Below are positions 1 through 37,552 of a DNA stretch of 38,045 nucleotides, piece after piece; positions within the stretch are counted from its first letter, which is position 1; the number at the start of each line of letters is the position of its first letter. The DNA is from a virus. The DNA lies in IMG/VR virus record IMGVR_UViG_3300030117_002737, positions 1 to 38,045 of that record; one strand, 5' to 3'. Below the pieces are notes generated by a model that did not search any database, had not been told where the DNA came from, and saw nothing but the letters and a program-made list of their open reading frames with translations. Made by a program: the position numbers and the translations under genes.

Positions 1-74
1 TTGTTGCGATGCAATGATCGCATTGACAACGTTGTAGATTCCTTTGAGGTGAGGTTCGTCTGTCTCAAATGGTT
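1..74. repeat. Terminal overlap, left copy
   Basis: These bases recur at 37972-38045 with one difference (C at 64, T at 38035). The repeat lies inside a small minus-strand gene that is open across the join, and the mismatch is a synonymous GAG/GAA change in its codon 9. The simplest reading is a circular or circularly permuted molecule whose assembly overlaps itself. A true short direct terminal repeat is less likely but not excluded. Confidence 0.93.
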
Positions 75-90
75 TTATTTCATCTACCAT
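1..90 (-). CDS. Small acidic protein, 5' part of a gene split by the contig join
   Basis: Starts at ATG 90 and runs off the window at base 1; the remainder is at 37909-38045. Joined across the 74-base overlap it encodes 50 residues, beginning MVDEIKPFETDEPHLKG and ending in a run of four Asp then Gln-Thr. It is acidic, without membrane segments or recognised domain. The leader AAAGAAAGGAATGTT stands upstream, a variant of the purine-rich ribosome-binding site used throughout this gene block. The 3' end overlaps the start of the zinc-finger protein gene at 37925, so it couples the small-gene array to the recombination module. Function unknown. Confidence 0.7.
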   Translation of the reverse strand, partial: MVDEIKPFETDEPHLKGIYNVVNAIIASQQ

Positions 91-221
91 ATAACATTCC
101 TTTCTTTGTGTTTTTTATTTTGTGGCATTTGACTTGGCATACTTGTTTCAGTCTGCATTTAACTACCTCTTATCCCACGATCAACTTGGGCGAACTTATC
201 GCACAGTGGGTAGTACCACAT
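84..221 (-). other. Two possible micro-ORFs (20 and 24 codons) in a gap between small genes
   Basis: The stretch 91-262 has no ordinary gene. Two tiny minus-strand frames are visible: 221-159 (20 residues, starting MWYYPLCDKF, AGGAAAG upstream) and 158-84 (24 residues, starting MQTETSMPSQ, with GAGG six to seven bases upstream). The second starts directly after the first one's stop and covers the ribosome-binding site of the next gene. Spacing and Shine-Dalgarno sequences suit translation, but at this length neither can be separated from chance. Confidence 0.25.
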
Positions 222-262
222 CGTGCCAGCTTTCCTGTCAGGCTTTATACTGCTCAGTCGTG

Positions 263-445
263 TCACGATTCTAAATCTTCCAATGGGTTAGCGTCTATTG
301 CTTCCGCTAAACCTTCTCTGTGTTGTAACAAATAACCTTGTTCATCTATGTGCTGAATTAAACTACTGATCTCGTTGCCGAGTTGTTTATCATTGATAGA
401 ATCGCCGGTCATTATTATTTCTAGTACATTAACCTTCTTACTCAT
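263..445 (-). CDS. Small hypothetical protein (60 aa)
   Basis: Soluble, mildly acidic protein, beginning MSKKVNVLEIIMTG. Two adjacent ATGs are possible (448 and 445). GGAGG lies 3 bases before the first and 6 before the second, so the second is preferred. It overlaps the end of the 53-residue gene upstream by 8 bases, implying translational coupling. No recognisable domain; a predicted helix spans most of residues 15-50. Member of the leftward early block. Confidence 0.6.
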   Translation of the reverse strand: MSKKVNVLEIIMTGDSINDKQLGNEISSLIQHIDEQGYLLQHREGLAEAIDANPLEDLES

Positions 446-599
446 CATCTTCCTCCGGTTCTGTGAAGAACACTACATAGCTTTCTCTAATGTGGTCACG
501 GCTTTCCAACTCTTCCTTATCCACATTGTAAATCCAGCCCCAGTCTGTATGACCGTAAGTACATAGTGAATACTGATCTATTGCTTCTGTTACATCCAT
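438..599 (-). CDS. Small acidic hypothetical protein (53 aa)
   Basis: Begins MDVTEAIDQYSLCTYG and ends in a strongly acidic tail (EPEEDDE). It contains an aromatic-rich centre, WGWIYNV, and no cysteine pairs. Just upstream (627-601) a nine-codon frame starting MADEIKVFG resembles the first codons of the 50-residue gene at position 90 (MVDEIKPFE). This suggests a duplicated gene start that was later truncated. AAAGG upstream is the probable ribosome-binding site. Function unknown. Confidence 0.5.
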   Translation of the reverse strand: MDVTEAIDQYSLCTYGHTDWGWIYNVDKEELESRDHIRESYVVFFTEPEEDDE

Positions 600-629
600 T
601 AGCCGAACACCTTTATTTCATCTGCCATG

Positions 630-767
630 TTAGAGTTTTTCCGTTTCTATATCAACCAAGTCACCTAGCTCTACGGCTACGTTCTTTGCTGTTTCTTCAT
701 CGGGTGCGTCTACGGTAGTAATAACCGCACCGTGTTCGTATATGTGCATCACGTTGTATGCTGGCAT
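630..767 (-). CDS. Small hypothetical protein (45 aa)
   Basis: Begins MPAYNVMHIYEHGAVITTV, then a DAPDEETAKNVA segment. The pattern of a beta strand followed by D-x-D/E-E-x-A resembles small phage proteins that form a strand-helix unit. The 62-residue protein at 2528-2716 has a similar ADDETEAIELA segment. GGAAGGATTAGA precedes the ATG, and the start lies inside the 3' end of the preceding gene (19-base overlap). Function unknown. Confidence 0.55.
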   Translation of the reverse strand: MPAYNVMHIYEHGAVITTVDAPDEETAKNVAVELGDLVDIETEKL

Positions 768-892
768 TCTAATCCTTCCTTATAGTAAAGCTCTTCCTCA
801 CGTTGAGCGTGAAGAGCATCTGTTTCTCTTTGCAAAGCCTCATCAAAGGCTTCTTCTTGTTCGGGTGTAAACCCTAACAGTTTTATTTTCAT
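749..892 (-). CDS. Small charged helical protein (47 aa)
   Basis: Begins MKIKLLGFTPEQEEAFDEAL and is rich in Glu, Gln and Arg through residue 35, consistent with one long amphipathic helix. The start is fixed by the block's consensus leader AAAGAAAGGAAAGAT directly before ATG. No family recognised. Confidence 0.65.
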   Translation of the reverse strand: MKIKLLGFTPEQEEAFDEALQRETDALHAQREEELYYKEGLECQHTT

Positions 893-905
893 ATCTTTCC
901 TTTCT

Positions 906-1100
906 TTATTTGTGACCAGTTAGTGCACGACCCATTAAGAGTTGGTACACACGCTCAATTTGAGTAGTGTCCTGATCTTGTTCGTGTGCTTGCTCTGCAA
1001 ACATGCGTATTGCAGTACCAAGCGCACCGTATTCGTCTTCGGTGAGCTTTGCTTTTACAAGCACTTTTATTTTTTGTGGTTTGTATTTTTGTGTTGCCAC
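906..1100 (-). CDS. Small basic hypothetical protein (64 aa), GTG start
   Basis: Begins with GTG, read as Met, giving MATQKYKPQKIKVLVKAKL. The consensus leader AAAGAAAGGAAAGATT precedes the GTG, which supports this non-ATG start. A lysine-rich N-terminus is followed by a helical region (TEDEYGALGTAIRMFAEQAHEQ). It is the first gene after a strong sigma70-like promoter at 1128-1155 and so heads its own sub-operon. A nucleic-acid-binding or regulatory role is possible from charge alone, but unsupported by motif. Confidence 0.65.
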   Translation of the reverse strand: MATQKYKPQKIKVLVKAKLTEDEYGALGTAIRMFAEQAHEQDQDTTQIERVYQLLMGRALTGHK

Positions 1101-1127
1101 AATCTTTCCTTTCTTTTGTTATATTAA

Positions 1128-1155
1128 ATAGTACACGACCTGTAACAAATGTCAA
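1128..1155 (-). promoter_or_regulatory. Sigma70-like leftward promoter
   Basis: On the minus strand a perfect -35 box TTGACA (1155-1150) is followed after 16 bases by TACTAT (1133-1128), then an AT-rich stretch and the ribosome-binding leader of the gene starting at 1100. It is the best promoter match in the early block. It would boost the distal genes, which lie about 6 kb from the divergent control region, and the recombination module beyond the join. Confidence 0.75.
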
Positions 1156-1161
1156 ATCATG

Positions 1162-1329
1162 TTACACATCGTTTGACCAGTTCGCTCCATTACAGAACGG
1201 ACAGGTCGGATATCTGTCAGAGATTGCATCACCAATAAAAGCTCTGCAATCAAGACACTTCACGAAGAACTTGCTTAAGCCTTTAGACTTACGCTTCTTC
1301 GTTTTCTCTTGCGAGAAATCAAAGTCCAT
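1162..1329 (-). CDS. Small zinc-ribbon protein (55 aa)
   Basis: Residues 9-21 are very basic (KTKKRKSKGLSK). Then come C25-x2-C28 and C43-x2-C46, the spacing of a small zinc ribbon. GAAAGGAAGGAAT precedes the ATG. Such phage proteins typically bind nucleic acid or act as adaptors; the target cannot be told. It lies directly upstream of the 1128-1155 promoter and just downstream of the WhiB gene. One of several CxxC proteins in the block. Confidence 0.65.
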   Translation of the reverse strand: MDFDFSQEKTKKRKSKGLSKFFVKCLDCRAFIGDAISDRYPTCPFCNGANWSNDV

Positions 1330-1381
1330 ATTCCTTCCTTTCTTTGTTACCTTCTTGGTGTATAACCTTTATGACAGGGTA

Positions 1382-1630
1382 TCACACGCTGTCAAATCGG
1401 GACTTCATCATCCTCCACCTGTAACGCTCAGATGCAGTCATTCCATGTCTGAAACCCCAGAGTTGGAAAGGGTCTGGCTCATCGTCAGCAGACGTAGCAA
1501 TACACTGTTCAATAACAGGGCATCCATCACAAACAGACCGGCACTTACGATGCTGGTCCGAATAGAATATCGTAGTCATGCCACGACAGCCAGCTCTCTC
1601 TCTCCAGTCATCCATTCTTTTACTATACAC
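1382..1630 (-). CDS. whiB: WhiB-family transcription factor
   Basis: The 82-residue frame carries the WhiB signature: W9-x5-C15-R-G near the N-terminus, then C34-x2-C37-P-V-x3-C43. This is the C-x2-C-x5-C arrangement that holds the [4Fe-4S] cluster in WhiB proteins. The turn motif that normally reads G-V-W-G-G is LWGFRHG here, followed by the usual T-x2-E-R and a basic C-terminus. The family is restricted to Actinobacteria and actinophages and acts on the principal sigma factor region 4. It is the strongest host marker in the window. GTG at 1630 is preferred because a G-rich Shine-Dalgarno lies about nine bases before it; ATG 1615 is the alternative. The ribosome-binding site is inside a hairpin. 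Confidence 0.85.
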   Translation of the reverse strand: MYSKRMDDWRERAGCRGMTTIFYSDQHRKCRSVCDGCPVIEQCIATSADDEPDPFQLWGFRHGMTASERYRWRMMKSRFDSV

Positions 1631-1642
1631 TAAAGAACCCCC

Positions 1643-1679
1643 TGCGCAGGAAAAGAAGGAAGGAAACCCACGCAGGAGG
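1643..1679 (-). promoter_or_regulatory. Hairpin covering the whiB ribosome-binding site
   Basis: On the minus strand CCTCCTGCG pairs with CGCAGGGGG (one G-T pair) around a pyrimidine-rich loop. The 3' arm holds the G-run that would serve as Shine-Dalgarno for the GTG at 1630. No U-tract follows, so it is more likely a translational control element or a processing site than a terminator. Arm edges are accurate to a few bases. Confidence 0.5.
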
Positions 1680-1689
1680 TCTAATGATT

Positions 1690-2115
1690 CTAGTTGTAAA
1701 CTAGCTCACCAAACAACCCGTACTGAACAATAATGTCAGCCCACTCTGCGTCTTGTACATTCCTTACTGCTTCGTAGTTATTCGCTCGGTCAGCCTTATA
1801 CAATGCAAACCCTATTCGGTCTACATCCGATTGTAAAAACGGGTCAGAATAAGATTCTGGTTGGCTTGTTTTGAAGTGGTGAATCAGTCTATGGATTCCT
1901 GCCTCTATGGTCTGTTGATTCAACGTGTATATAGAAAAGCTGTTGTTCCCATCTTCATCATCAACTGTTAGTACAGCACTCCAACCGTGAAAGTCTACGT
2001 GCGGAGAGTCTTTGTGATAGTAATTACTTACGTCTGCCCAATAGTTGATACCGCCTTCGCAAGCAGTAACGAATACATCATGGGTAAACTCTTCGTATTC
2101 TTTTAGTTCTAACAT
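1690..2115 (-). CDS. Hypothetical protein (141 aa)
   Basis: The start is chosen at ATG 2115 because the consensus leader AAAGAAAGGAAAGAT sits directly before it; an open frame reaches further upstream but lacks such a site. The protein begins MLELKEYEEFTHDVF and is acidic and aromatic-rich, with alternating polar/hydrophobic segments suggesting an alpha/beta fold. No cysteine pairs, membrane segments or known motif. Last gene before whiB. Confidence 0.7.
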   Translation of the reverse strand: MLELKEYEEFTHDVFVTACEGGINYWADVSNYYHKDSPHVDFHGWSAVLTVDDEDGNNSFSIYTLNQQTIEAGIHRLIHHFKTSQPESYSDPFLQSDVDRIGFALYKADRANNYEAVRNVQDAEWADIIVQYGLFGELVYN

Positions 2116-2140
2116 ATCTTTCCTTTCTTTATTTATTATT

Positions 2141-2401
2141 TTAATACGATGATAACCGCTGGTTTGGGTCATCTTTGTAGGACTGAATAACAAGAGTGTC
2201 ATCGTCTACAATCGTAGTGCGCACCTTAAGGTTACGTTTGTTGCCTGCTTGAGAGGCTCCAGTACGCATGACTTTAGCTGAGCATTGGAAGTCATCGGGT
2301 CTTTTAAGTTCCCAGATGCGACCATCTAGCCACAAGTTCCAATTATATTTTCTCTTACGACCTACGTTTGAGAAAACAAATTTGTCTAATGTGTTTGCCA
2401 T
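2141..2401 (-). CDS. Small basic hypothetical protein (86 aa)
   Basis: Begins MANTLDKFVFSNVGRKRKYNWNLWLDG. The residue pattern (GRKRKYNWNLWLDGRIWEL, then SAKVMRT, KRNLKVRTTIVDDDTLVIQSY) resembles the compact beta-rich proteins common in actinophage early regions. The function of those is not established. AAAGGAAAGATAAATT precedes the ATG. A stable 11-bp hairpin lies upstream. Confidence 0.65.
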   Translation of the reverse strand: MANTLDKFVFSNVGRKRKYNWNLWLDGRIWELKRPDDFQCSAKVMRTGASQAGNKRNLKVRTTIVDDDTLVIQSYKDDPNQRLSSY

Positions 2402-2441
2402 AATTTATCTTTCCTTTCTGAAACATGTTGAGTGTTTCCCA

Positions 2442-2478
2442 CTGTCCACCACCTAAGGGAGGTAAGTGTGGTGAACAG
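2442..2478 (-). other. Intergenic 11-bp stem-loop
   Basis: CTGTTCACCAC pairs with GTGGTGGACAG on the minus strand (one G-T pair) around a 15-base loop, in the 125-base gap between the genes at 2528-2716 and 2141-2401. No U-tract follows in either direction. It is unrelated in sequence to the repeated tetraloop hairpins of the same operon; a role in mRNA processing or stability is inferred. Confidence 0.55.
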
Positions 2479-2527
2479 GGAGCTACACTCTTCAGCTCTG
2501 GGAGATTCCCTGAATCGTCAGAGGTTG

Positions 2528-2716
2528 CTAGTCCCACGGGGCGTAAACAGTAGACCAGTAATCAGTTTGAATATGATGTGCCGTTGAATGTGCTTCGGCA
2601 ACGTCTACAAACCCACCAGCAAGTTCAATAGCTTCGGTTTCGTCATCGGCTTGAACCTCTACTTCTACTTTAGATTCAAACGTGACAACGAAAGCAATCG
2701 TGTATGATTCTTTCAT
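2528..2716 (-). CDS. Small acidic protein (62 aa)
   Basis: Begins MKESYTIAFVVTFESKVEVEVQADDETEAIELA. Two beta strands followed by a D-x-E-x-A-x-E-x-A helix resemble the small strand-helix proteins seen in many phage early regions. The C-terminus is histidine- and tryptophan-containing (HSTAHHIQTDYWSTVYAPWD). The leader AAAGAAAGGAAAGATAT fixes the start. Compare the 45-residue protein at 630-767. Function unknown. Confidence 0.65.
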   Translation of the reverse strand: MKESYTIAFVVTFESKVEVEVQADDETEAIELAGGFVDVAEAHSTAHHIQTDYWSTVYAPWD

Positions 2717-2737
2717 ATATCTTTCCTTTCTTTTTAT

Positions 2738-2893
2738 TTATAATTTGTCACCACATCCGTTACCACGAACACTACCGCATCCGACAACGAAACCGTCAGT
2801 GACACCATCTAATGAATCAACCGGAAGATCACAGAAATCACAATAAATGTATTCGCCATCTTCATTAGGTTGAACATTGTACGGGTTAAGCAT
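2738..2893 (-). CDS. Small cysteine-rich zinc-ribbon-like protein (51 aa)
   Basis: The start at 2893 is set by AAAGAAAGGAAAGATT immediately upstream. Begins MLNPYNVQPNEDGEYIYCDFC. C18-x2-C21 is followed by two Cys-Gly pairs near residues 39 and 47 (GCGS, GCGDKL), a plausible four-cysteine metal site. Acidic overall. A tetraloop hairpin copy separates it from the gene upstream. No specific role can be assigned. Confidence 0.65.
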   Translation of the reverse strand: MLNPYNVQPNEDGEYIYCDFCDLPVDSLDGVTDGFVVGCGSVRGNGCGDKL

Positions 2894-2931
2894 AATCTTT
2901 CCTTTCTTTTTGATACCTAATTGATACCCTA

Positions 2932-2953
2932 GAGCACACCTCACGATGCGCTC
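2932..2953 (-). repeat. Intergenic tetraloop hairpin, copy A
   Basis: Stem GAGCGCATC / GGTGTGCTC (nine pairs including G-T) closes a GTGA loop, a GNRA tetraloop, when read in the direction of transcription. It differs from the other copies at paired positions without breaking the stem. Lies between the genes starting at 3500 and 2893. Confidence 0.7.
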
Positions 2954-2960
2954 CGAGTTA

Positions 2961-3500
2961 TTAACTAGCTAACTCTGCTCTTTTCTTTTCCATCAAAGCA
3001 TTAAACTCACGCTTATTATACGAGGTTGCATTAGTTGATAGACCAATACGGCGCTCCAAATCTTCACGGGTAACTTCCCGTTGAATTTGGTCCTCAAACT
3101 TGAGTTCATCCTCATTGAATTGCAAGTCATGGAACATAACATATCCGCCATACCCAGAATCTTTAAACATTTCAATTCTGCGCATCCATTCGTTAATGTT
3201 GCTCTCTTTAATAACGTTAAGCCCGACTGTCATCGTCATCCATACAATACTTTGAGTGACGTTGTGCGCTATCCACGTATTAATACGGGACAGGTACAGC
3301 CCTAACTCTTGCTCGTTGTCTTTGTCTGGAAGTGGACCCCATTGTGCATCACCTAGTGATGACAGTTGGACCTCTTCAATAACAAAGCCAGACGAATCTT
3401 TGACTTTGAATACCGGATATTCTGTGTTGCCTTTGTAAGCTGTTGCACAGGATATTTCCGAGTAGTCAGAGACATTTTCTACTGACCAATTAAATGGCAT
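2961..3500 (-). CDS. Hypothetical protein (179 aa)
   Basis: One of the largest proteins of the early block. Begins MPFNWSVENVSDYSEISCATAYKG. The N-terminal 75 residues look beta-rich and acidic; residues 85-110 (NTWIAHNVTQSIVWMTMTVGLNVI) are hydrophobic but interrupted and not a convincing membrane helix. The C-terminal third is charged and helical (FEDQIQREVTREDLERRIG, then NALMEKKRAELAS). The leader AAAGAAAGGAAAGATT precedes the ATG. No family recognised. Confidence 0.7.
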   Translation of the reverse strand: MPFNWSVENVSDYSEISCATAYKGNTEYPVFKVKDSSGFVIEEVQLSSLGDAQWGPLPDKDNEQELGLYLSRINTWIAHNVTQSIVWMTMTVGLNVIKESNINEWMRRIEMFKDSGYGGYVMFHDLQFNEDELKFEDQIQREVTREDLERRIGLSTNATSYNKREFNALMEKKRAELAS

Positions 3501-3540
3501 AATCTTTCCTTTCTTTTAATGATGTTTACTTAACACCCTA

Positions 3541-3562
3541 GAACACATCCGAAGATGTGCTC
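3541..3562 (-). repeat. Intergenic tetraloop hairpin, copy B
   Basis: Stem GAGCACATC / GATGTGTTC with a C(UUCG)G loop on the transcribed strand, the most stable common RNA tetraloop; on the opposite strand the loop would be CGAA. Flanked by the conserved CTCG before and TAGGGTG after the stem that mark the family. Confidence 0.75.
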
Positions 3563-3574
3563 CGAGCTGATAAG

Positions 3575-3862
3575 CTAGTCCCATAACGTTGCTCCGCACG
3601 CTTCGCATTTGTAGTCATCCCAATCGTATGGGGGATGGTCACAGTCCGTAGCATCATAGCATATATATTTGTTGTTATCTTTAGGGTTAGGATGCAACCA
3701 TCCGTTTCCGTTATTGTTAGTCAAATACCTTTCAACAGTTTTTATACTATGATTTCTACAGACATCAATAGTTTGTGATCCCACATGTGCGACTTCTTCA
3801 TCACAAGTCCATAGGGAACCCATCGTCGTCGTGTACGTTTCTATTCGTCTACCTTTAGGCAT
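3575..3862 (-). CDS. Cysteine-rich hypothetical protein (95 aa)
   Basis: Begins MPKGRRIETYTTTMGSLW. Cysteines occur in the middle and at the end, including a C-terminal C-x2-C (KCEACGATLWD) with an ICYDATDCDH segment before it, suggesting metal binding. The N-terminus is basic and the rest acidic. The consensus leader precedes the ATG. Its C-terminal CEACG resembles the end of the 111-residue protein at 4940-5275 (LCDVCRIVL), so the two may be distant relatives. Confidence 0.65.
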   Translation of the reverse strand: MPKGRRIETYTTTMGSLWTCDEEVAHVGSQTIDVCRNHSIKTVERYLTNNNGNGWLHPNPKDNNKYICYDATDCDHPPYDWDDYKCEACGATLWD

Positions 3863-3895
3863 TATCTTTCCTTTCTTTTAATGACTGCGTTTTAT

Positions 3896-3967
3896 TTAAT
3901 AGGTGGCATCAACAGCTTCTATAAGAGAAATTTTCTCTACTGTAATCTTTGGCAGTCCCCACCCCAT
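3896..3967 (-). CDS. Possible 23-codon micro-ORF
   Basis: In the 132-base gap 3863-3995 a frame starting MGWGLPKITVEKISLIEAV is open for 23 codons, but no ribosome-binding site precedes its ATG. The gap also holds a GGCTAGC/GCTAGCC stem-loop (about 3972-3990) and a 15-base palindrome, AGAGAAA-T-TTTCTCT, near 3922. These could be an operator or terminator remnant. The ORF may be a relic. Confidence 0.2.
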   Translation of the reverse strand: MGWGLPKITVEKISLIEAVDATY

Positions 3968-3995
3968 AAGGCTAGCAATTAGCTAGCCCCATAGG

Positions 3996-4289
3996 TTAGT
4001 TACTTTCAAACACTTTATATACAAAACTATATCCCGAATGACCAAAAGCCATCTCAAACATCCATCGCTCTACTACAGCAGACAAACTATCATCTACCGT
4101 CATACAAGCAAAGTCGTCACCGTTTAGACTTTTCTGTACGTCTTGGATTTCTTCAAGCATATACTTTAATACGACACCATACGGGTAGTCCTTGTCATTG
4201 TCTTCGCGAATAATAATATCTATATTTGCAGTTGTACAATCATAGGTTTCGCATATCTTTTTAATTGAACTATTCCGGTTCACTTTCAT
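3996..4289 (-). CDS. Hypothetical protein (97 aa)
   Basis: Begins MKVNRNSSIKKICETYDC. A basic N-terminal 15 residues are followed by an acidic alpha/beta body (IREDNDKDYPYGVVLKYML, then DDSLSAVVERWMFEM). AAAGAAAGGAAAGAT directly precedes the ATG. This is the most promoter-proximal gene using the AAAGGAAAG form of the leader; all genes nearer the control region use AAGAAGGAAG. No domain recognised. Confidence 0.68.
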   Translation of the reverse strand: MKVNRNSSIKKICETYDCTTANIDIIIREDNDKDYPYGVVLKYMLEEIQDVQKSLNGDDFACMTVDDSLSAVVERWMFEMAFGHSGYSFVYKVFESN

Positions 4290-4330
4290 ATCTTTCCTTT
4301 CTTTTAATGATGCTTATGCTTAGCACCCTA

Positions 4331-4354
4331 GAACACACCCTTACAGATGTGCTC
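4331..4354 (-). repeat. Intergenic tetraloop hairpin, copy C
   Basis: Stem GAGCACATCT / GGGTGTGTTC with a GTAA (GNRA) loop on the transcribed strand. The hairpin proper is identical to copy D. Lies between the genes starting at 4554 and 4289. Confidence 0.72.
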
Positions 4355-4376
4355 AGAGCTGATAAGCTAGCTAAAC

Positions 4377-4412
4377 TATCGTAGTCTCTTCTGTTGCCAC
4401 GGCTCTACGATA
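4377..4412 (-). other. Intergenic 8-bp stem-loop
   Basis: TATCGTAG and CTACGATA pair perfectly around a 20-base loop in the gap after the 39-residue gene, immediately upstream of hairpin copy C. Two stable stem-loops therefore follow each other in a 145-base untranslated stretch, more than a simple spacer needs. No U-tract is present. Confidence 0.5.
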
Positions 4413-4434
4413 CTGCACAACCGCCGACTCTTAG

Positions 4435-4554
4435 TCAAACCTTCAATTGAAATGGTATCTCTTCTGCGTCTTCATTGTAAATAAGCAGATTATCAGGGTC
4501 ATCTGGAAAGAACACAGCTTTGAGTCTTTCTATTGCCCAATCAATTTCTTCCAT
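4435..4554 (-). CDS. Small acidic protein (39 aa)
   Basis: Begins MEEIDWAIERLKAVFFPDDP and ends EDAEEIPFQLKV. The leader AGAAAGAAGGAACAT precedes the ATG exactly as in neighbouring genes, which is the main support for so short a frame. It is bracketed by hairpin copies D (upstream) and C (downstream), the typical cassette of this region. No known family. Confidence 0.65.
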   Translation of the reverse strand: MEEIDWAIERLKAVFFPDDPDNLLIYNEDAEEIPFQLKV

Positions 4555-4587
4555 ATGTTCCTTCTTTCTGATGCGCTTAGCACCCTA

Positions 4588-4611
4588 GAACACACCCTTA
4601 CAGATGTGCTC
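4588..4611 (-). repeat. Intergenic tetraloop hairpin, copy D
   Basis: Same stem and GTAA loop as copy C, 257 bp away. The flanks are also conserved (CAGCTCGGAGC before, TAGGGTGCTAAG after). It stands between the stop of the gene at 4624-4866 and the leader of the 39-residue gene. Confidence 0.72.
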
Positions 4612-4623
4612 CGAGCTGATAAG

Positions 4624-4866
4624 CTATGCCGAGAAACTTATATCAAAGTCCCAGCTACCATCACTAATGACAGATTGAATCCGCTCTTCTATTTCGGTAT
4701 CAACCCAGCCTTCTTGAAGGCAATCTTTTAGAGCTTGCTTAACTGTCTCATCATCTAGCTCTTGCATATCTTCACCCTTGAAGAAGTCTAACTCTTCTGG
4801 GAGATTCGCTATTACTAGAGGAACTAGCAGTTTTGCTAACTCATTTAGTAGTGGTTGCATTTCCAT
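4624..4866 (-). CDS. Small acidic helical protein (80 aa)
   Basis: ATG 4866 is chosen because AGAAAGAAGGAAGAT directly precedes it; the open frame extends further but through the hairpin region. Begins MEMQPLLNELAKLLVPLVIANL, a hydrophobic amphipathic helix. An acidic segment follows (EELDFFKGEDMQELDDETVKQ, then EEIQS-type charged residues) with an aromatic end. Possibly peripheral at a membrane or a protein-binding helix bundle; no motif recognised. Confidence 0.66.
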   Translation of the reverse strand: MEMQPLLNELAKLLVPLVIANLPEELDFFKGEDMQELDDETVKQALKDCLQEGWVDTEIEERIQSVISDGSWDFDISFSA

Positions 4867-4903
4867 ATCTTCCTTCTTTCTGATGTCATTACTTAACACC
4901 CTA

Positions 4904-4927
4904 GAACACATGCTTGCACATGTGCTC
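4904..4927 (-). repeat. Intergenic tetraloop hairpin, copy E
   Basis: Stem GAGCACATG / CATGTGTTC extended by a T-G pair, closing a GCAA (GNRA) loop. The inner base pair differs from copies B-D on both arms, a compensatory change. Confidence 0.75.
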
Positions 4928-4939
4928 CGAGTTGGTAAG

Positions 4940-5275
4940 CTAGTAGTTCAAGACGATCCTACACACGTCGCACAGATACTCTCCGCTTGGTTCAGCGTCA
5001 CCAGTGTAGCTATCATACTTCCAATAGTATTCCGGTCTATCACAGGGTCCATCAATATGGCTACCTTTAGTGTTCTTGTATTGTTCGTGATGCTCAAAGT
5101 CTAACCGATCATACAAGTCAGGAAGCTTAATGCACTTGCTACATAAGTCCCAGTGCATGTTCCCAAATTCTTCACAAGGGTCTTCGCTGTCATTGAATGC
5201 GTCACACCAGTGATAATACCGATCACCTCTACGCCAACGGTCAAGGTCTACTTCTTTGTTATACCAATTAATCAT
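4940..5275 (-). CDS. Cysteine- and tryptophan-rich protein (111 aa)
   Basis: Begins MINWYNKEVDLDRWRRGDRYYHW. Cysteines cluster as WDLCSKC in the middle and LCDVC at the C-terminus, an arrangement that could hold one structural zinc. Several Asp/Glu and His residues lie between (EHHEQY). AAGAAGGAAGAC precedes the ATG. Soluble; no recognised enzyme motif. Compare the 95-residue protein at 3575-3862. Confidence 0.68.
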   Translation of the reverse strand: MINWYNKEVDLDRWRRGDRYYHWCDAFNDSEDPCEEFGNMHWDLCSKCIKLPDLYDRLDFEHHEQYKNTKGSHIDGPCDRPEYYWKYDSYTGDAEPSGEYLCDVCRIVLNY

Positions 5276-5303
5276 GTCTTCCTTCTTTCTTTTTTGTTTT
5301 TCT

Positions 5304-5585
5304 CTAATTGAGATCAGTTAATTTGTAAACACGTTCTTTTATTAATTGCTTACAAATCTTAGTGTCTACATATCGCCCATCTACATTACCTAAGAACATA
5401 TTGCGATACTTACTCGTAGTAGGTGAGTAATCCCAGTATTGCTTATCTAACCATACTTGCCCATCATTATCTACTAAGACAATGTTAGATTCGTATGAAC
5501 GGTACCATTTACCACGTTCAGTTGTTACTTCAAACTGATTAGGTACGTTCTTCCCGTTAGGGCTTTTCATGTTTTCTAATTCCAT
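5304..5585 (-). CDS. Hypothetical protein (93 aa)
   Basis: Begins MELENMKSPNGKNVPNQFEV; the leader GGAAGAT lies directly before the ATG. The centre is rich in Trp and Tyr (GKWYRSYESNIVLVDNDGQVWLDKQYWDY), suggesting a beta-sheet core with bound loops, and the C-terminus is basic (KICKQLIKERVYKLTDLN). The preceding gene follows without a tetraloop hairpin, one of few such gaps. Function unknown. Confidence 0.65.
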   Translation of the reverse strand: MELENMKSPNGKNVPNQFEVTTERGKWYRSYESNIVLVDNDGQVWLDKQYWDYSPTTSKYRNMFLGNVDGRYVDTKICKQLIKERVYKLTDLN

Positions 5586-5618
5586 ATCTTCCTTCTTTCT
5601 GATGCGCTTAGCATCCTA

Positions 5619-5642
5619 GAACACACACTGTCGCATGTGCTC
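5619..5642 (-). repeat. Intergenic tetraloop hairpin, copy F
   Basis: Stem GAGCACATGC / GTGTGTGTTC (three G-T pairs) with a GACA loop. It keeps the family's flanking TCTCG before and TAGGATG after. The loop departs from strict GNRA at its third base. Confidence 0.65.
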
Positions 5643-5649
5643 CGAGATA

Positions 5650-5841
5650 TCAAGCTAATGAATCTATAAATGCTTCCAGTTCATCATATCTGTCTTCAAC
5701 GTGTAATGCTCTTACATGTTGTGCAAATGATATGATTGTGTCTTTCCATCCGGCATCAACCCAGACAGACTCACTATTGGACTCCATAATTCCACGTGCT
5801 AAGAAGCACGCTATGTTTAGAGTATCTATTTGCATTTCCAT
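5650..5841 (-). CDS. Small protein (63 aa), paralogue of the 84-aa gene at 6190-6444
   Basis: Begins MEMQIDTLNIACFLARGIME. From residue 8 it aligns with the protein of 6190-6444: both share L-N-x2-C-F-L, a following Glu, V-x-A-x-W-x2-T, then S-F-x2-H-x-R-x-L. This is a clear tandem duplication with one gene in between. Acidic C-terminus. AGAAAGAAGGAAGAT precedes the ATG. Function unknown. Confidence 0.68.
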   Translation of the reverse strand: MEMQIDTLNIACFLARGIMESNSESVWVDAGWKDTIISFAQHVRALHVEDRYDELEAFIDSLA

Positions 5842-5863
5842 ATCTTCCTTCTTTCTGTTGTTG

Positions 5864-6118
5864 TTAAGCCTCTACGTCTATTTCAAAGTCTTCTTTGAAC
5901 TCATAGATAACTTTGTTGATTGCGTAAAGCTGTTCGTATATTTCACGCTTAGTTCCACGTTTAGAGATGTCACGGCTCCCGTTGTTCTTAACTAGTTGGT
6001 GAGTACCATCGGCAGAGTAAATATCAAAGCGCTCTGGAGCGTTGTTATCCCGAATACCGAAGTAGCCGTTTAACACCTCCACTTCACGTTCTAAATCTTG
6101 TGTAGTTATTCTTTCCAT
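5864..6118 (-). CDS. Hypothetical protein (84 aa), actinophage early type
   Basis: ATG 6118 is chosen on the AGAAAGAAGGAAGAT leader; an upstream extension would read through a hairpin. Begins MERITTQDLEREVEVLNGYFG. A second half with RGTKREIYEQLYAINKVIYEF resembles the widespread mycobacteriophage small proteins that end in a G-x-R-T-K-R-E-L-Y helix. That likeness is from memory and the family's function is unknown. Acidic C-terminus. Confidence 0.66.
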   Translation of the reverse strand: MERITTQDLEREVEVLNGYFGIRDNNAPERFDIYSADGTHQLVKNNGSRDISKRGTKREIYEQLYAINKVIYEFKEDFEIDVEA

Positions 6119-6133
6119 ATCTTCCTTCTTTCT

Positions 6134-6181
6134 GATAGTCTGATTAACTATCAAACAACACACTAATAAATTAATGTGCTG
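6134..6181 (-). repeat. Intergenic double hairpin, divergent copy H
   Basis: Two stem-loops in tandem: CAGCACATTA.. pairing with ..TAGTGTGTTG (6181-6156, about ten pairs, AT-rich tip), then GATAGT / ACTATC (6152-6134). The first keeps the GCACAT...GTGTGTT core of the repeated family but has lost its tetraloop. It is probably a diverged member. Confidence 0.5.
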
Positions 6182-6189
6182 TATGCAAG

Positions 6190-6444
6190 TCAAGCAGATA
6201 TGTCGCTATCAATCCAATATGTATCTAGATGAATCAATAGTTTCTTATAGTCGCTTAGTTCACCTTCAGGTGTGTCCTTGGCTATAGCTGATAGGTACCG
6301 GAAGTGCTCACCGAAACTCACAAGTGTTGCCCTCCATGATGCAACCGGCATGCCTTCAGGTCTTGCCTCAAGCAACCTGCTACCCAAGAAACAACCCGTG
6401 TTTAAAAAATTGGGTGTACAATCTATTTTAAAATCTTCTTCCAT
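6190..6444 (-). CDS. Small protein (84 aa), paralogue of the 63-aa gene at 5650-5841
   Basis: Begins MEEDFKIDCTPNFLNTGCFLG. The body repeats the L-N-x2-C-F-L ... W-x2-T-x2-S-F-x2-H-x-R-x-L pattern of its neighbour, but with an N-terminal extension and an insert before the C-terminal helix. AGAAAGAAGGAAAT precedes the ATG. Two diverged copies kept in one operon suggest a heteromeric pair or functional split; the activity is unknown. Confidence 0.68.
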   Translation of the reverse strand: MEEDFKIDCTPNFLNTGCFLGSRLLEARPEGMPVASWRATLVSFGEHFRYLSAIAKDTPEGELSDYKKLLIHLDTYWIDSDISA

Positions 6445-6481
6445 ATTTCCTTCTTTCTATATTGATGCAGTTAGCATCCTA

Positions 6482-6503
6482 GAACACATCTCCCGATGTG
6501 CTC
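6482..6503 (-). repeat. Intergenic tetraloop hairpin, copy G
   Basis: Stem GAGCACATC / GATGTGTTC with a GGGA (GNRA) loop on the transcribed strand. The same stem as copy B carries a UUCG loop there, so loop class changes while the stem is kept. Confidence 0.75.
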
Positions 6504-6518
6504 CGAGATAATAACCAT

Positions 6519-6722
6519 CTATCCTTGATATGGTCCTGCCCAATTTGGACCGTTCATATTCTTGAACTCGCCAGTACCTAACTGAGTTACACCGTTAAAG
6601 CGTTGGTCACGTTCCCACCGTAGCGCTTTATGCGCTTGACGATTACGGAGACGCTCTAACCGTAATTGATTTAATTCACGGTCACGTTTTGCCCTGCGCA
6701 ACTTGCGTTCGTACTCTTCCAT
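6519..6722 (-). CDS. Small Arg/Lys-rich protein (67 aa), first gene of the early block
   Basis: The N-terminal 40 residues are very basic and helical (MEEYERKLRRAKRDRELNQL, then RLERLRNRQAHKALRWERDQ), typical of a nucleic-acid- or ribosome-binding helix. The C-terminus is Gly/Asn-rich. AGAAAGAAGGCAAAA precedes the ATG. As the first gene after the leftward leader it would be made earliest. Target unknown. Confidence 0.66.
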   Translation of the reverse strand: MEEYERKLRRAKRDRELNQLRLERLRNRQAHKALRWERDQRFNGVTQLGTGEFKNMNGPNWAGPYQG

Positions 6723-6737
6723 TTTTGCCTTCTTTCT

Positions 6738-6756
6738 GCATCCCTTACGGGTGCTC
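6738..6756 (-). repeat. Tetraloop hairpin, copy I, at the start of the early block
   Basis: On the minus strand GAGCACCC-GTAA-GGG-A-TGC forms a short stem with a GTAA (GNRA) loop directly before the leader of the first early gene. It shares the GAGCAC start and loop of copies C and D but has a shorter stem. Confidence 0.55.
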
Positions 6757-7060
6757 GTCAGTTGGGTTAATTCCCAAGAGAAGGAAAGAAAGATTGCTGA
6801 TTTACCCTTAGCCCCGTACGGGGTCCATCGGTGGTATACCGCTAGGTGGCGGTCAAGCGATTATTGCCGGTCTTCTATCCGTCATCACGGTGGAGCCTGC
6901 CGTTAATCCGACCTTTTCATGAGCCAGAAACACTCGCATATTTTGAGGACTTTCAACCCTATTGAAGAACTCTTGTGTTGGTGATGTCTCACCTATCCTT
7001 CTTATTCCTGACCCCTTCCTAAGGGCTAGAGCTGAACCGGTTTCTGATCAACTTCAGTAA
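6757..7060 (-). ncRNA. Candidate structured leader RNA of the early block
   Basis: About 300 bases without a convincing gene. Read leftward they form a row of short, tight stem-loops: CCCTT/AAGGG, GGTGA-GACA-TCACC, TTCAA/TTGAA, CCGT-GATG-ACGG, ACCGC/GCGGT, the palindrome CCCCGTACGGGG, and TTGGG/CCCAA. Base composition is more GC-rich than the flanking genes. One minus-strand frame of about 63 codons crosses it, but it lacks a start with a ribosome-binding site until an internal ATG (28 codons left). It also uses AGG and AGA freely, unlike the neighbouring genes. An untranslated regulatory RNA fits best; the family is not recognised. Confidence 0.4.
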
Positions 7061-7067
7061 TAACAAC

Positions 7068-7096
7068 GATATAGGAACGGTAGAGAAATGAGACAT
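7068..7096 (-). promoter_or_regulatory. Candidate leftward early promoter
   Basis: TATATC (7073-7068, minus strand) is a moderate -10 box; the -35 position reads ATGTCT, a poor match. The start site would be near 7061. The nearest Crp-like dyad (7114-7129) is then centred about 60.5 bases upstream, close to the class I activation position. Weak -35 plus activator spacing make an activator-dependent promoter plausible. Confidence 0.4.
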
Positions 7097-7113
7097 TTTC
7101 AGACGATAAATAG

Positions 7114-7499
7114 TGTGTCATGTGTCACACCAAAAGAGTCGCTTTTCCTATCAGCAAAAACAGCAAACCACAACCAAAAGTGACGAACGTCACACCAAAA
7201 TAGGTGTGACATATGTCATCCCCCAGAATCGCCGAAACGCAACCCCGAAGGGGGGTAGGACCATTTTTCAATAAAAGCCCGTAGAACGCATCTACGGGCG
7301 TCTGGTGGAAATGTGACCAATGTCATAGACATCCGTCACACCACAACCCCACACGTGACCACCGTCACACGTGACCAACGTCACACCCAAACAGTCCAGC
7401 ACCAATGTGACCCACGTCACACGTGACCACCGTCACAGTGACAAACGTCACACCCCACCCCCTACCCTGTGACAAACGTCACATGTGACCACCGTCACA
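7114..7499. repeat. Array of Crp/GlxR-like 16-bp dyads
   Basis: At least eleven sites match TGTGA-N6-TCACA, seven to ten bases exact out of ten. They start at 7114, 7179, 7205, 7312, 7354, 7370, 7406, 7422, 7437, 7468 and 7484, with a half-site at 7325. Those at 7406, 7468 and 7484 are perfect. Several abut exactly (7354/7370, 7406/7422, 7468/7484). The consensus is that of the Crp/FNR superfamily, including actinobacterial GlxR. The array fills the space between the divergent promoters. Alternative: iterons for a phage initiator, though no initiator gene was recognised. Confidence 0.8.
7273..7299 (-). terminator. Intrinsic terminator for leftward transcription, inside the dyad array
   Basis: A perfect 8-bp stem GCCCGTAG / CTACGGGC with a 7-base loop is followed on the minus strand by TTTTATTG. 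In the plus direction no U-tract follows. No leftward gene lies upstream of it, so it would stop antisense transcripts or end a small RNA begun in 7300-7900. Confidence 0.6.
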
Positions 7500-7523
7500 C
7501 TATTTTAGCTCACCCCCCTATAC

Positions 7524-7560
7524 TGGTCATACTGACTGCTTATAATGGTCAAGGTGACCA
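7524..7560 (+). promoter_or_regulatory. Rightward late promoter with two operator dyads
   Basis: A perfect -10 box TATAAT (7541-7546) has almost no -35 match (CTATAC at 7518-7523). With a start near 7553, the perfect Crp-like dyad at 7484-7499 is centred at about -61.5, the classic class I position; the next is at -77.5. The -10 is flanked by a second dyad type, TGGTCA-N3-TGACTG (7524-7538) and TGGTCA-AGG-TGACCA (7546-7560), 22 bases centre to centre. These could hold a repressor dimer on each side. Transcription would give a 5' leader of about 400 bases before the late genes. Confidence 0.6.
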
Positions 7561-7603
7561 GATTGCCGAGCCTCCCCCCACAGCCCTGTTAGGTTAACGC
7601 TTT

Positions 7604-7690
7604 TCTGGTTATGTTGGTTCAGTTGTTTGTGTGTTTGGGTGTTTTGTTTGTTGGTGTTTGGTTGTTTTGTTTTGGGCGTGGTTTCCCTTG
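7604..7690. other. G/T-only stretch in the late leader
   Basis: Some 80 bases are almost free of C and A on the plus strand. The late mRNA leader here would be largely unstructured. Read leftward it is C/A-rich and G-poor, the composition bound by Rho, so leftward stray transcripts could be ended here. It could also be an easily melted element beside the dyad array. No ORF of note crosses it. Confidence 0.45.
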
Positions 7691-7748
7691 GGAACCTCCC
7701 AAGCATTGAGGTTGCTTTGACCTTGTAATCGCTTTGTCCTGTGCGTTA

Positions 7749-7792
7749 CGCCCCTGTGCGCTCATTTCCTCTTTGCGTTGTCACAGGGGGCG
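7749..7792 (+). other. Stable stem-loop in the late leader
   Basis: CGCCCCTGTG pairs with CACAGGGGGCG (one bulged G) around a roughly 23-base loop that itself contains a short CGC/GCG pairing. No U-tract follows. It may protect the late mRNA 5' region or mark a DNA site; the sequence alone does not decide. Confidence 0.45.
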
Positions 7793-7862
7793 GTTACCCT
7801 TCTGACGGGTGACTCACCGAGGGTTAGTCGGGCGCTGCTTACAGGCGTTGTTGTGGTTGGTC

Positions 7863-7920
7863 AAGGGTCCACAATCCCCTTTTTGTTTTTGGGTATGGGT
7901 TAGGATACCCTTTCCGGTAT
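7863..7920 (+). promoter_or_regulatory. Attenuator-like segment before the first late gene
   Basis: A weak stem AAGGG / CCCTT is followed by TTTTTGTTTTT (to 7890), a minimal intrinsic terminator. Directly after, GGGTAT (7891-7896) can pair with ATACCC (7905-7910), or ATACC (7905-7909) with GGTAT (7916-7920). The two are mutually exclusive. The arrangement could meter read-through into the late genes; no ligand or leader peptide is evident. Confidence 0.35.
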
Positions 7921-7950
7921 TTAGTTACAACATGGTGTTGGGAGTTTTTT

Positions 7951-8049
7951 GTGTTTTGTGAAGATTTTGATAAAATAGTTGATGATGTTGAGGATGAGGT
8001 GCTAGAGTGTGGCTTAGAAAATCCTGACATTTGTGAGAGTTGTCAGTAA
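7951..8049 (+). CDS. Micro-gene: acidic cysteine-containing peptide (32 aa)
   Basis: GTG start with GGGAG six bases upstream. Begins MFCEDFDKIVDDVEDEVLEC and ends CESCQ. Four cysteines (residues 3, 20, 28, 31), the last two as C-x2-C, within an extremely acidic peptide, could bind a metal. The 33-residue basic gene follows after ten bases. First open frame of the late transcript. No homologue recognised. Confidence 0.5.
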   Translation: MFCEDFDKIVDDVEDEVLECGLENPDICESCQ

Positions 8050-8059
8050 GGAGAGTATT

Positions 8060-8161
8060 ATGCCATACGGTAAGGGTACATACGGTAGTAAGGTTGGCAG
8101 ACCGTCTAAAAAGGCTAAGGCTGCTGGTCGTAAGAAGATGAAGAACAAAAGAAAAAAATAA
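8060..8161 (+). CDS. Micro-gene: basic GTYGSKVGRP protein (33 aa)
   Basis: Starts MPYGKGTYGSKVGRPSKK and ends in a run of Lys and Arg (15 of the last 20 residues are Lys, Arg or Ala). GGAGAG lies about five bases before ATG. Very short proteins beginning with a G-T-Y-G-x-K-x-G-R-P motif recur beside structural genes in many marine phages; this likeness is from memory. DNA binding, perhaps in packaging, is plausible from charge and from the terminase next door. Confidence 0.65.
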   Translation: MPYGKGTYGSKVGRPSKKAKAAGRKKMKNKRKK

Positions 8162-8185
8162 AAAAGGTAAAATGGCTAAGAGTAG

Positions 8186-10096
8186 ATGGGGTCTGGTAAA
8201 GCTACACCTGTAGAAAAGTGGGCTAAGTACTTGTTGCTGCGTCGCAGTATGAGTATTTATCAGGCTGCTAAAGAAGCTGGTGTTAATTATCATTCAGCTA
8301 GAGACAATGAGTCTGGGCGTGTGTCTACACGCAACTATGTTGTCGCTAAGGAGCAAACTGAACGTGTGGGTGTATCTACTATACCTACATATGAAGAGCT
8401 ACCTGAAGAAGTGCAAGAGTGTTGGGATAGCATTGAAAAATTTGCGTTGCGTTATTTTGGTATTGTTTTGCAGCCGTGGCAAATAGAAGCCACAGAAAAG
8501 ATATTTGAACTATTTGAAACACCATTAGAAGAATATTGTGTTATTAATGCACCACCTGGAAGTGGAAAATCTACATTTTTTGCTAAGGTTCTACCAGCAT
8601 GGGCAACGGTTCGTAACAGAGCTATTAGAGGGATGCTCGGTTCCTCCACGCAACGTCTCGCTGAATGGTATACACGGCGTTTGCGTGCGGAGTTTGAACG
8701 AGAGCATGTTGCTCGTGCTGAACTAAACGACATTAAACTAGGGTTAGCGGTTGACGCTGAACGCACATTGCAACAAGACTTTGGGCAGTTTAAACCTGAC
8801 GCTAAAGAAATTTGGCGTGCTGAAGCATTTACTGTAGTGCAACAAGGCGATGTGCCGTTATCGCAAAAAGAACCGTCGTGGTCTGCGTTTGGTATGGACT
8901 CTGGTTTTCTAGGTGGTCGTTTTGATCTTATTATTTGGGATGACGTTTGGGACCCAAGAAAAATGCGTAACTCTGAGTCTCGTTCTGATATGTACCGTTG
9001 GTGGGATGAAGTAGCTGAAACACGGTTAGAGCCTGCTGGGTTACTTATATTGCAAGGGCAACGTATGGCTCCTGACGACATTTACAGATATGCGTTAGAT
9101 AAGTTTGCTCCAATAGATGATGAAGACGATCTTGAAGAAGTTGATGAAAATAAAGTAGATACGGAAGGTGAACGTAAATACACGCATCTTAAATTTAAAG
9201 CGCATTACGATGACAGGTGCAACCATTTGCATAAACCTAGTGACGTTGCGTATCCTGAAGGTTGTTTGTTGTATCCTCGTAGGTTGCCGTGGCGACGCAT
9301 ACGACATATTAAAGCGCAAACACCTGACCGATACGAAATATTGTACCAACAAGAAGACACTGACCCTGCATCTGTGCTTGTAGACCCTTTATGGATTAGT
9401 GGCGGTGTTGGTGATAATGGTGTGCAGTACATTGGGTGTTGGGATGAAGACCGTGATTTATGGGAAGTGCCAAAGTATTTAGCTGGCGATGTTATGGTTG
9501 TAGCGTCTGCTGACCCGTCACCGTCTAATTTTTGGGCGTTGCAATGTTGGGCTTACTGTCCTGATAGTGAATACAGGTACTTATTAGAATCGTATCGTCG
9601 CAAAATGGATGCACCATCGTTCCTTGACTGGAACCATGACACGCAACGCTTCACTGGCATAGCTGAAGAGTGGTGGCAAATAAGTAACGATATTGGTCAC
9701 CCTATTACGCATTGGATAGTTGAAGCTAACGCTGCTCAAAAATTTATTTTGCAGTACGATCATTTCCGACGGTGGTCTGCGTTGCGTGGTGTAGAACTTA
9801 TTCCGCATTACACCCATTCTCGTAACAAAGGTGACCCTAAGTATGGTGTGCAAATGCTTGCACCGTTGTATCGCTTGGGTCGCATTAGGCTTGCTGGTAA
9901 GCAACGTACTAACGCTAGACCGCATTCTTTAAAATTAGTTAATGAGGTAACAAAATGGAACCCAGAAGGCACAGGTACTAGAACTGATGACTGTGTGATG
10001 GCACAATGGTTCGTAGAACATAATCTTGAAAAATTATACGTGCCACGTGCAGAGCCTCATAGGTTGTGGCGACCTTCGTGGGTAACAGAAAGTTAA
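8186..10096 (+). CDS. terL: Terminase large subunit
   Basis: The packaging motor: an ATPase joined to a headful-cutting nuclease. Walker A is at residues 123-130 (PPGSGKST) and Walker B at about 246-253 (FDLIIWDD). An RNase H-like nuclease follows with acidic residues in SADPS (about 444), an IVEAN segment and a final DDCVMAQW (about 600). Length 636 is a little above usual because of an N-terminal extension. This extension (SMSIYQAAKEAGVNYHSARD) looks like a helix-turn-helix and may replace part of a small subunit, none of which was recognised. A stop codon abuts the ATG, so the start is bounded. A 13-codon frame from ATG 8172 with a better ribosome-binding site overlaps it and may couple translation. 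Confidence 0.92.
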   Translation: MGSGKATPVEKWAKYLLLRRSMSIYQAAKEAGVNYHSARDNESGRVSTRNYVVAKEQTERVGVSTIPTYEELPEEVQECWDSIEKFALRYFGIVLQPWQIEATEKIFELFETPLEEYCVINAPPGSGKSTFFAKVLPAWATVRNRAIRGMLGSSTQRLAEWYTRRLRAEFEREHVARAELNDIKLGLAVDAERTLQQDFGQFKPDAKEIWRAEAFTVVQQGDVPLSQKEPSWSAFGMDSGFLGGRFDLIIWDDVWDPRKMRNSESRSDMYRWWDEVAETRLEPAGLLILQGQRMAPDDIYRYALDKFAPIDDEDDLEEVDENKVDTEGERKYTHLKFKAHYDDRCNHLHKPSDVAYPEGCLLYPRRLPWRRIRHIKAQTPDRYEILYQQEDTDPASVLVDPLWISGGVGDNGVQYIGCWDEDRDLWEVPKYLAGDVMVVASADPSPSNFWALQCWAYCPDSEYRYLLESYRRKMDAPSFLDWNHDTQRFTGIAEEWWQISNDIGHPITHWIVEANAAQKFILQYDHFRRWSALRGVELIPHYTHSRNKGDPKYGVQMLAPLYRLGRIRLAGKQRTNARPHSLKLVNEVTKWNPEGTGTRTDDCVMAQWFVEHNLEKLYVPRAEPHRLWRPSWVTES

Positions 10097-36696: not shown

Positions 36697-37552
36697 CATT
36701 ATCTCCTTTCAGTAATGATTCATGGTAACGAGCTGTCGTCAAGGTGACCTCTGTTGGTCCCACCATCTGACAAAGTTCGTTGTGTCTACAGTATCTACAT
36801 TGCCAGTGTCCGCCTTTGTGAGGCACACCATACGGGCTAGGTCTTTCAACTAACTGATCTACCCCGTTGTCGTCAAACAGTACGGCATCTGGGAGCATGT
36901 CGTTACTGAGGTCTTGTTGCACTGAGCGGAACAGTTCTAGTTCAGCGTCAGCTAATTGCATAGGTGACATTCCGTACTCGTAGATGACTTCATCTAATGG
37001 TATGACCCATTCAATGATGTCGCCTGCTTTTGTTTTGCTACGGAAGTCGTCGCCTTTAGCCATGTACACAAGGTACACAGCGTCTACTTGCTTACCTGTT
37101 TCTATCATGCCTTTGGCATACAGGCTGGCTTGTGACAGGTGCTCCCGTTTAGGCACACCTGATTCTCTAGCGAGTTTGAACCCGAATGGCGACATGGTTT
37201 TTATTTCTAACAACCTGTATTCGTCATTGACTTTTATTAATCCGTCACAGCTACCACTAAGGCTAACACCTGTGTAGGACAAGTCTATCGCTGTCTCATA
37301 CTCTCCTTCAAACTGATCTGCGCACGCTTCTTGGATTACGTTGTGCATGTGTGTGCCTAGCTCAAATGCGAGCAGGGTTGATGTGTCTATCTGATGACAC
37401 TCATGTGTCTGTAAGGCGTTAAATCCTCGCTGACGTAGACACGCACCGCTGTCACTCACACGGCTTTGCGTACCGCAAGCTGTCTCCTTGACGGAACGAT
37501 TGCCTTGTAAGAACTCTTCGTATGCTGTACTTATATCAGAAGTCTGTATCAT
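36668..37552 (-). CDS. Cas4/RecB-like PD-(D/E)XK exonuclease with Fe-S cysteines (294 aa)
   Basis: Core motif D103 (GSCDGLI), E116-I-K118 (LLEIKT) and Q141 (HLSQASLYA) are the RecB nuclease residues. One cysteine near the N-terminus (C38) and a C-terminal C252-x2-C255-x5-C261 match the four ligands of the [4Fe-4S] cluster in Cas4 and AdnAB-type nucleases. It probably resects DNA ends to load the annealing protein encoded next. No cas1 or CRISPR array is present, so a CRISPR role is unlikely. GGAGAAGATT precedes the ATG, which lies inside the upstream gene. Confidence 0.83.
   Translation of the reverse strand: MIQTSDISTAYEEFLQGNRSVKETACGTQSRVSDSGACLRQRGFNALQTHECHQIDTSTLLAFELGTHMHNVIQEACADQFEGEYETAIDLSYTGVSLSGSCDGLIKVNDEYRLLEIKTMSPFGFKLARESGVPKREHLSQASLYAKGMIETGKQVDAVYLVYMAKGDDFRSKTKAGDIIEWVIPLDEVIYEYGMSPMQLADAELELFRSVQQDLSNDMLPDAVLFDDNGVDQLVERPSPYGVPHKGGHWQCRYCRHNELCQMVGPTEVTLTTARYHESLLKGDNDDIPASQVS

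Follow-up and report, generated by a model that had tools for sequence, protein, structure and literature searches.

The temperate phage GIL01 is controlled by LexA, a global repressor of its host that has a set of boxes in the phage promoter (PMC4551915). Relatives of the phage analysed in this study resemble GIL01 in carrying LexA-type boxes at an equivalent regulatory island; the phage itself differs in having Crp-type boxes and no integrase that could be found, and its family exchanges box types. In cyanophages, host PhoB sites (Pho boxes) occur in the phage genomes as single boxes at particular genes. At the present locus a phage promoter would likewise be tied to a host nutrient-state regulator, with a dense array instead of single boxes. 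Mycobacteriophage L5 carries stoperators, many asymmetric sites across the genome that are bound by the phage repressor. The present phage also has many sites in one actinophage genome, but these are symmetric and lie in one island, and no cognate repressor was found among the proteins scanned. Operators of the actinobacterial regulators Crp (S. coelicolor) and GlxR (C. glutamicum) have the half-site, the spacing and the inner G in common with the phage array; they occur as one or few per promoter, whereas the phage array tiles at least 11 sites, several at 15-16 bp, in one intergenic region. Control of phage promoters by host regulators is thus already known, with one or few sites each; the new element is the exchange of motifs at one locus.

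The window, the whole stretch of DNA analysed, is a 38,045-base virus record. A close, circularly permuted relative (G002) runs over both of its ends, so the genome is nearly complete. Two of its genes are used below as reference points:
1382-1630, minus strand: WhiB-like regulator, an actinobacterial hallmark (PF02467, E 2.7e-8)
8186-10096, plus strand: terminase large subunit (PHROG 38, E 1e-43)

Other genes encode a capsid protein, endolysins, a single-strand binding protein, a Cas4-like exonuclease, a DnaQ-like exonuclease and an annealing protein. Among the window proteins scanned, no integrase, no lysogeny repressor and no known repressor or HTH family was found. Since the phage encodes WhiB, its host is an actinobacterium, and the nearest cultured relatives of its capsid and terminase include Streptomyces phages. 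A terminase search for the host found no close relative in GTDB contigs; across 395 Acidimicrobiia and 396 Actinomycetota genomes it found only relatives at 38-41%, in one genome each, and their short loci contained none of the arrays. One actinobacterial genome (G496:C2:93395-123661; L200, L201) has two distant terminase relatives 28 kb apart on a single contig, perhaps neighbouring prophages.

The earlier note had placed eleven or more Crp/GlxR-type dyads at 7114-7499, three of them perfect, and these coordinates proved exact: 11 matches to TGTGA-N6-TCACA were found at up to two mismatches, the perfect ones at 7406, 7468 and 7484. A sharper description of the motif is GTGAC-N4-GTCAC, with eight exact copies in the array and none elsewhere in the 38,045 bases; its reversed control pattern has no exact copy in the window. 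Counted by this motif, the array consists of 11 dyads (eight exact and three with one mismatch) and one weaker copy. The strict sites are confined to 7180-7498, so that a stoperator-like spread over the genome was not observed. The individual sites, all motif matches, are as follows:
7114-7129, no strand: dyad TGTGTCATGTGTCACA, one mismatch
7179-7194, no strand: dyad AGTGACGAACGTCACA
7205-7220, no strand: dyad TGTGACATATGTCATC, two mismatches
7312-7327, no strand: dyad TGTGACCAATGTCATA, one mismatch
7325-7340, no strand: weak copy ATAGACATCCGTCACA, three mismatches, one good half-site
7354-7369, no strand: dyad CGTGACCACCGTCACA
7370-7385, no strand: dyad CGTGACCAACGTCACA
7406-7421, no strand: dyad TGTGACCCACGTCACA, perfect
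7422-7437, no strand: dyad CGTGACCACCGTCACA, second occurrence
7437-7452, no strand: dyad AGTGACAAACGTCACA
7468-7483, no strand: dyad TGTGACAAACGTCACA, perfect
7484-7499, no strand: dyad TGTGACCACCGTCACA, perfect

The abutment at 16-bp intervals that had also been pointed out was confirmed start to start for three pairs (7354/7370, 7406/7422 and 7468/7484), and a step of 15 bp was found for one (7422/7437). The proposed comparison with shuffled sequence separated the array clearly from chance: with up to one mismatch, GTGAC-N4-GTCAC occurs 11 times in the island 7072-7627, against a mean of 0.07 and a maximum of two in shuffles, and even the best 5-bp dyad of any kind (spacers 0-8) reached a maximum of three in the shuffled island. 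Over the whole window the loose pattern TGTGA-N6-TCACA, at up to two mismatches, shows no enrichment (24 sites, with 22 expected); hence the signal is purely local. A and C predominate among the four central bases of the dyads, as they do in the top strand around the sites, and for this reason no direction was read from these bases. Neither phage isolates (INPHARED) nor plasmids gave a BLAST match to the array.

The array lies between divergent gene blocks, on the minus strand below 6722 and on the plus strand from 8186. The earlier note had spoken of divergent phage promoters; the divergence of the blocks stands, whereas the promoters found no support, a scan of 6700-8200 giving no more candidates than chance. 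The features of the island and its flanks are:
6447-7071, minus strand: flank 79-82% identical in the relatives L002 and L003, holding the first leftward gene (6519-6722)
7072-7627, no strand: hypervariable regulatory island, swapped as a block in the closest relatives (blastn)
7277-7299, minus strand: terminator-like hairpin inside the island, nine pairs then TTTTATTG (sequence match alone)
7541-7546, plus strand: TATAAT hexamer, weak, with no good -35 (from sequence; absent from the promoter-scan output)
7628-8112, plus strand: rightward leader preceding the terminase gene, conserved at 96-97% identity in L002 and L003

Given the leftward hairpin at 7277-7299, which falls in mid-array, leftward transcription would start within the island. 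A terminator-like hairpin was seen by eye in L002 and L003, seemingly at the equivalent place. If the TATAAT hexamer is used, the centre of the rightmost dyad falls near -61.5 relative to it; this class-I Crp position was considered and not relied on, the promoter being unproven. The 485-bp leader is recognisable in more distant relatives too and may represent a structured RNA or tiny genes; Rfam gave no match for it. Within 1700-6800, AGAAAGAAGGAA-like repeats, a strong ribosome-binding or spacer element, often stand ahead of genes on the minus strand.

Comparative analysis covered 79 related loci with terminases 46-97% identical to that of the window. The earlier note had proposed looking for the array in related phage contigs, and it was absent from those fetched: no exact GTGAC-N4-GTCAC was present in the stretches read of the 79 loci, some of whose contigs end too near the terminase gene to show the position. 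The GTGAC-N4-GTCAC array is therefore private to the window phage among the fetched relatives. L002 and L003 (95% terminase identity) align by blastn with the window up to 7071 and 7063 (82% and 79%) and again from 7628 (97%), with nothing alignable in between; in place of 7072-7627 their replacement segments carry CGAAC-N4-GTTCG dyads. Three or four such dyads, at steps of 15, 16, 32 or 33 bp, were found in L019, L020, L025 and L067, and a single LexA-type box is present at the island position of L018. In the upstream DNA of the relatives, CGAAC-N4-GTTCG ranks first of all 1024 half-sites at spacers of 0-10. The LexA motif of S. venezuelae is tCGAAC-N4-GNNCGa (PMC9380542), and this consensus, taken from Streptomyces, is matched in sequence in L002, L003, L019, L020, L025 and L067. 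L016 and L063 have no dyad array at the island position, from which it follows that a dyad array is not essential.

According to the earlier note, related phages conserving the array as a different motif that fails the Crp consensus would refute a Crp-family role. Such arrays do exist, as CGAAC-N4-GTTCG in L002, L003, L019 and L067, and yet their motif is itself the site of a host regulator, LexA. Because the replacement motif is a LexA site and both motifs abut in other actinophages, the host-regulator idea is redirected rather than killed.

Further repeats were seen in the relatives. A second CGAAC cluster lies some 3.2 kb further left in L019 and L067 (L019:5217-5295, L067:4974-5075); there the CGAAC dyads are followed by two GTTCC/GGAAC dyads, an arrangement conserved between both. 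In L019 this cluster stands before a WhiB/DnaA-like operon; a stand-alone protein of the DnaA C-terminal (DnaA-box-binding) domain (L019:4424-4840; PF08299, E 4.8e-14) adjoins the WhiB gene. Copies of TTAGG-N4-CCTAA occur in L004, L071 and L077; by eye these look DtxR-like, and Pho-like direct repeats were seen by eye in L003, L004 and L077, no claim being made for either. The island of L009 (8440-9340) has other N4 dyads, TGTTACAAACGTAACA and CCAACCAAACGGTTGG, the second copy with a variant centre. In L050 a different palindrome crowds the same part of the genome: CTCGAG occurs 81 times in 17.9 kb, 64 of them within the 4.5 kb that precede the terminase gene (1-4500), apparently in coding and non-coding DNA alike.

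Both motifs were also found in other actinophages. Two adjacent GTGAC-N4-GTCAC dyads occur in 19 IMG/VR contigs, against three for the reversed control; four of the 19 (L082, L084, L088 and L093) had the look of coding repeats and were excluded from the analysis of context. In 24 contigs, against two for the reversed control, a GTGAC dyad and a CGAAC dyad lie no more than 8 bp apart, and 13 of the 24 encode WhiB. Steps in these mixed arrays are mostly 14-19 bp, partly since the scan demanded closeness. Tandem CGAAC dyads form at least 120 stretches in IMG/VR, and WhiB was present in 21 of 31 sampled contigs of this kind, against one of five control contigs. The mixed arrays of L080, L324 and L330 are intergenic, with short genes or promoter-like sequence immediately downstream. 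L080 is unrelated, measures 50 kb and encodes WhiB and a transglycosylase-like domain (PF06737); each of its three mixed arrays precedes a short gene and adjoins DnaA boxes. In the promoter regions L080:12800-14823 and L330:1-1100, DnaA boxes, LexA-type and Crp-type dyads are packed together, and the packing is repeated upstream of successive short genes. The strongest argument for putative host-regulator sites is that the motifs of two known actinobacterial global regulators, with the correct spacing, stand side by side in actinophages.

The consensus of S. coelicolor Crp is GTG(N)6GNCAC and that of C. glutamicum GlxR is NGTG(N)8CACN (PMC10033298). The array motif fits both, and shares half-site, spacing and inner G with the former; with this match and the actinobacterial host, the resemblance to Crp/GlxR sites that had been noticed from the letters of the window is strengthened. 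The putative Crp assignment draws on literature motifs and not on host data. HTH_Crp_2 exceeded the cut-off in 58 of 80 Acidimicrobiia genomes. Acidimicrobiia contain 379 GTGAC-N4-GTCAC sites overall, against 138 for the reversed controls, and genomes of up to 1.1 Mb have almost none (three sites in 17 genomes). Site density was 1.66 per Mb in Acidimicrobiia with strong HTH_Crp_2 and 2.77 per Mb in those without. This is the opposite of what the Crp assignment predicts, but the comparison is confounded: genomes are incomplete, their composition differs and the HTH model is broad. When 20 chromosomal sites were inspected by eye, their placement relative to promoters was ambiguous in this GC-rich DNA. 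Footprints of Crp are such that dimers cannot fill all sites 15-16 bp apart simultaneously, and so the array would act through local occupancy, competition or titration.

The other phage proteins considered as readers of the array, and a further dyad, are:
906-1100, minus strand: orphan 64-aa protein, private to the window phage, the only candidate for a phage-encoded binder of the array
1141-1156, no strand: weak dyad TGTAACAAATGTCAAA, two mismatches, 41 bp upstream of the orphan gene
37536-37925, minus strand: winged-helix-like protein (by eye), 87-92% identical in relatives

A reader of the array should change when the array changes. WhiB is more than 90% identical in relatives with different arrays, and the putative recognition region of the winged-helix-like protein is essentially unchanged in them; both are for this reason disfavoured as readers. 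No relatives of the orphan were found; it has a basic N-terminal stretch, and its model, of low confidence, shows two helices; the models of two window-only proteins were both of low confidence.

Binding by a phage-encoded repressor or activator that is exchanged together with the array, with the orphan as binder and 1141-1156 as its autoregulatory site, is the main rival and appears unlikely on balance. Orphan and array are both found only in the window phage, a small dimer fits tiling at 15-16 bp better than Crp does, and a TTGACA-like element shortly before the orphan gene is overlapped by the two-mismatch dyad, though about 1.4 such dyads are expected by chance per genome. The correlation is weak, however, because the orphan is one of five small window genes absent from L002 and L003; moreover, the orphan has no Pfam, useful PDB or fold match, unrelated actinophages tile the same motif with no orphan gene in the loci read, and the motif is already that of a known host site. 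It is rather unlikely that the array serves mainly as a DNA sponge, titrating a host Crp-family regulator instead of controlling phage promoters. Near-perfect sites do outnumber the needs of a promoter, and perfect TGTGAC-N4-GTCACA occurs three times in the phage and once in total in eight actinobacterial chromosomes; but the single LexA-type box of L018 could control and hardly titrate, overlapping occupancy limits the protein held per array, and the mixed arrays of other phages stand at gene starts. A shade less probable still is another host regulator with a similar dyad. Many regulators of actinobacteria bind dyads, and the density of chromosomal sites does not track the content of Crp-type HTH; against this, the published motif of Crp is matched in half-site and spacing and also in the extra inner G. 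One such regulator, BldD, was considered, and its spacing counts against it: the arms of its site are five bases apart, compared with four in the array dyads.

That the dyads are replication-origin iterons for an initiator, an option of the earlier note, is disfavoured and must be considered very improbable. Cumulative GC skew does reach its minimum at the array, and the region is divergent and non-coding, but gene orientation flips at this minimum too and the sites are two-fold symmetric. Iterons should be conserved with their initiator, whereas in relatives of the same layout the repeats are of another type or, as in L016 and L063, missing, alongside a nearly unchanged winged-helix-like protein. 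The chance that the dyads are hairpins in RNA or single-stranded DNA, with 6-bp stems and 4-base loops, is negligible. Some copies score as terminator-like stems, but in the imperfect dyads 7114, 7205 and 7312 the symmetry is broken on one side and pairing is lost with nothing to compensate for it, a pattern that fits protein sites better than hairpins, and relatives replace the stretch entirely.

With slightly better than even confidence, we read the array as operators for a host Crp/GlxR-family regulator in a block-exchanged regulatory island, at which different lineages would install arrays for different host regulators. Lying between the gene blocks that run left and right, the island is exchanged as a block within the phage family, its contents being Crp-type here, LexA-type in most others with an array and, in some, possibly DtxR-like or other. 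In an infected cell only part of the array would be bound by the host regulator, neighbouring sites being 15-16 bp apart, and the occupied array would switch the two divergent units in response to host state (cAMP/Crp), from putative promoter positions and with a direction and sign of control that are likewise part of the prediction. As phage DNA multiplies, the same sites may pull the regulator off host promoters. A broader suggestion, which we hold tentatively and at less than even confidence, is that host-state sensing evolves by exchange of whole islands (Crp, LexA and possibly others), the phage's own regulators staying constant, and that the mixed Crp/LexA tilings of unrelated actinophages are integrating versions of this device.

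In one phage family and at one locus, different host-regulator motifs are swapped through a 0.5-kb block between conserved flanks. This would constitute a natural experiment on linking lytic programmes to carbon state or DNA damage in uncultured actinobacterial hosts and, if the reading is true, sequence would predict the host signal that each phage heeds.
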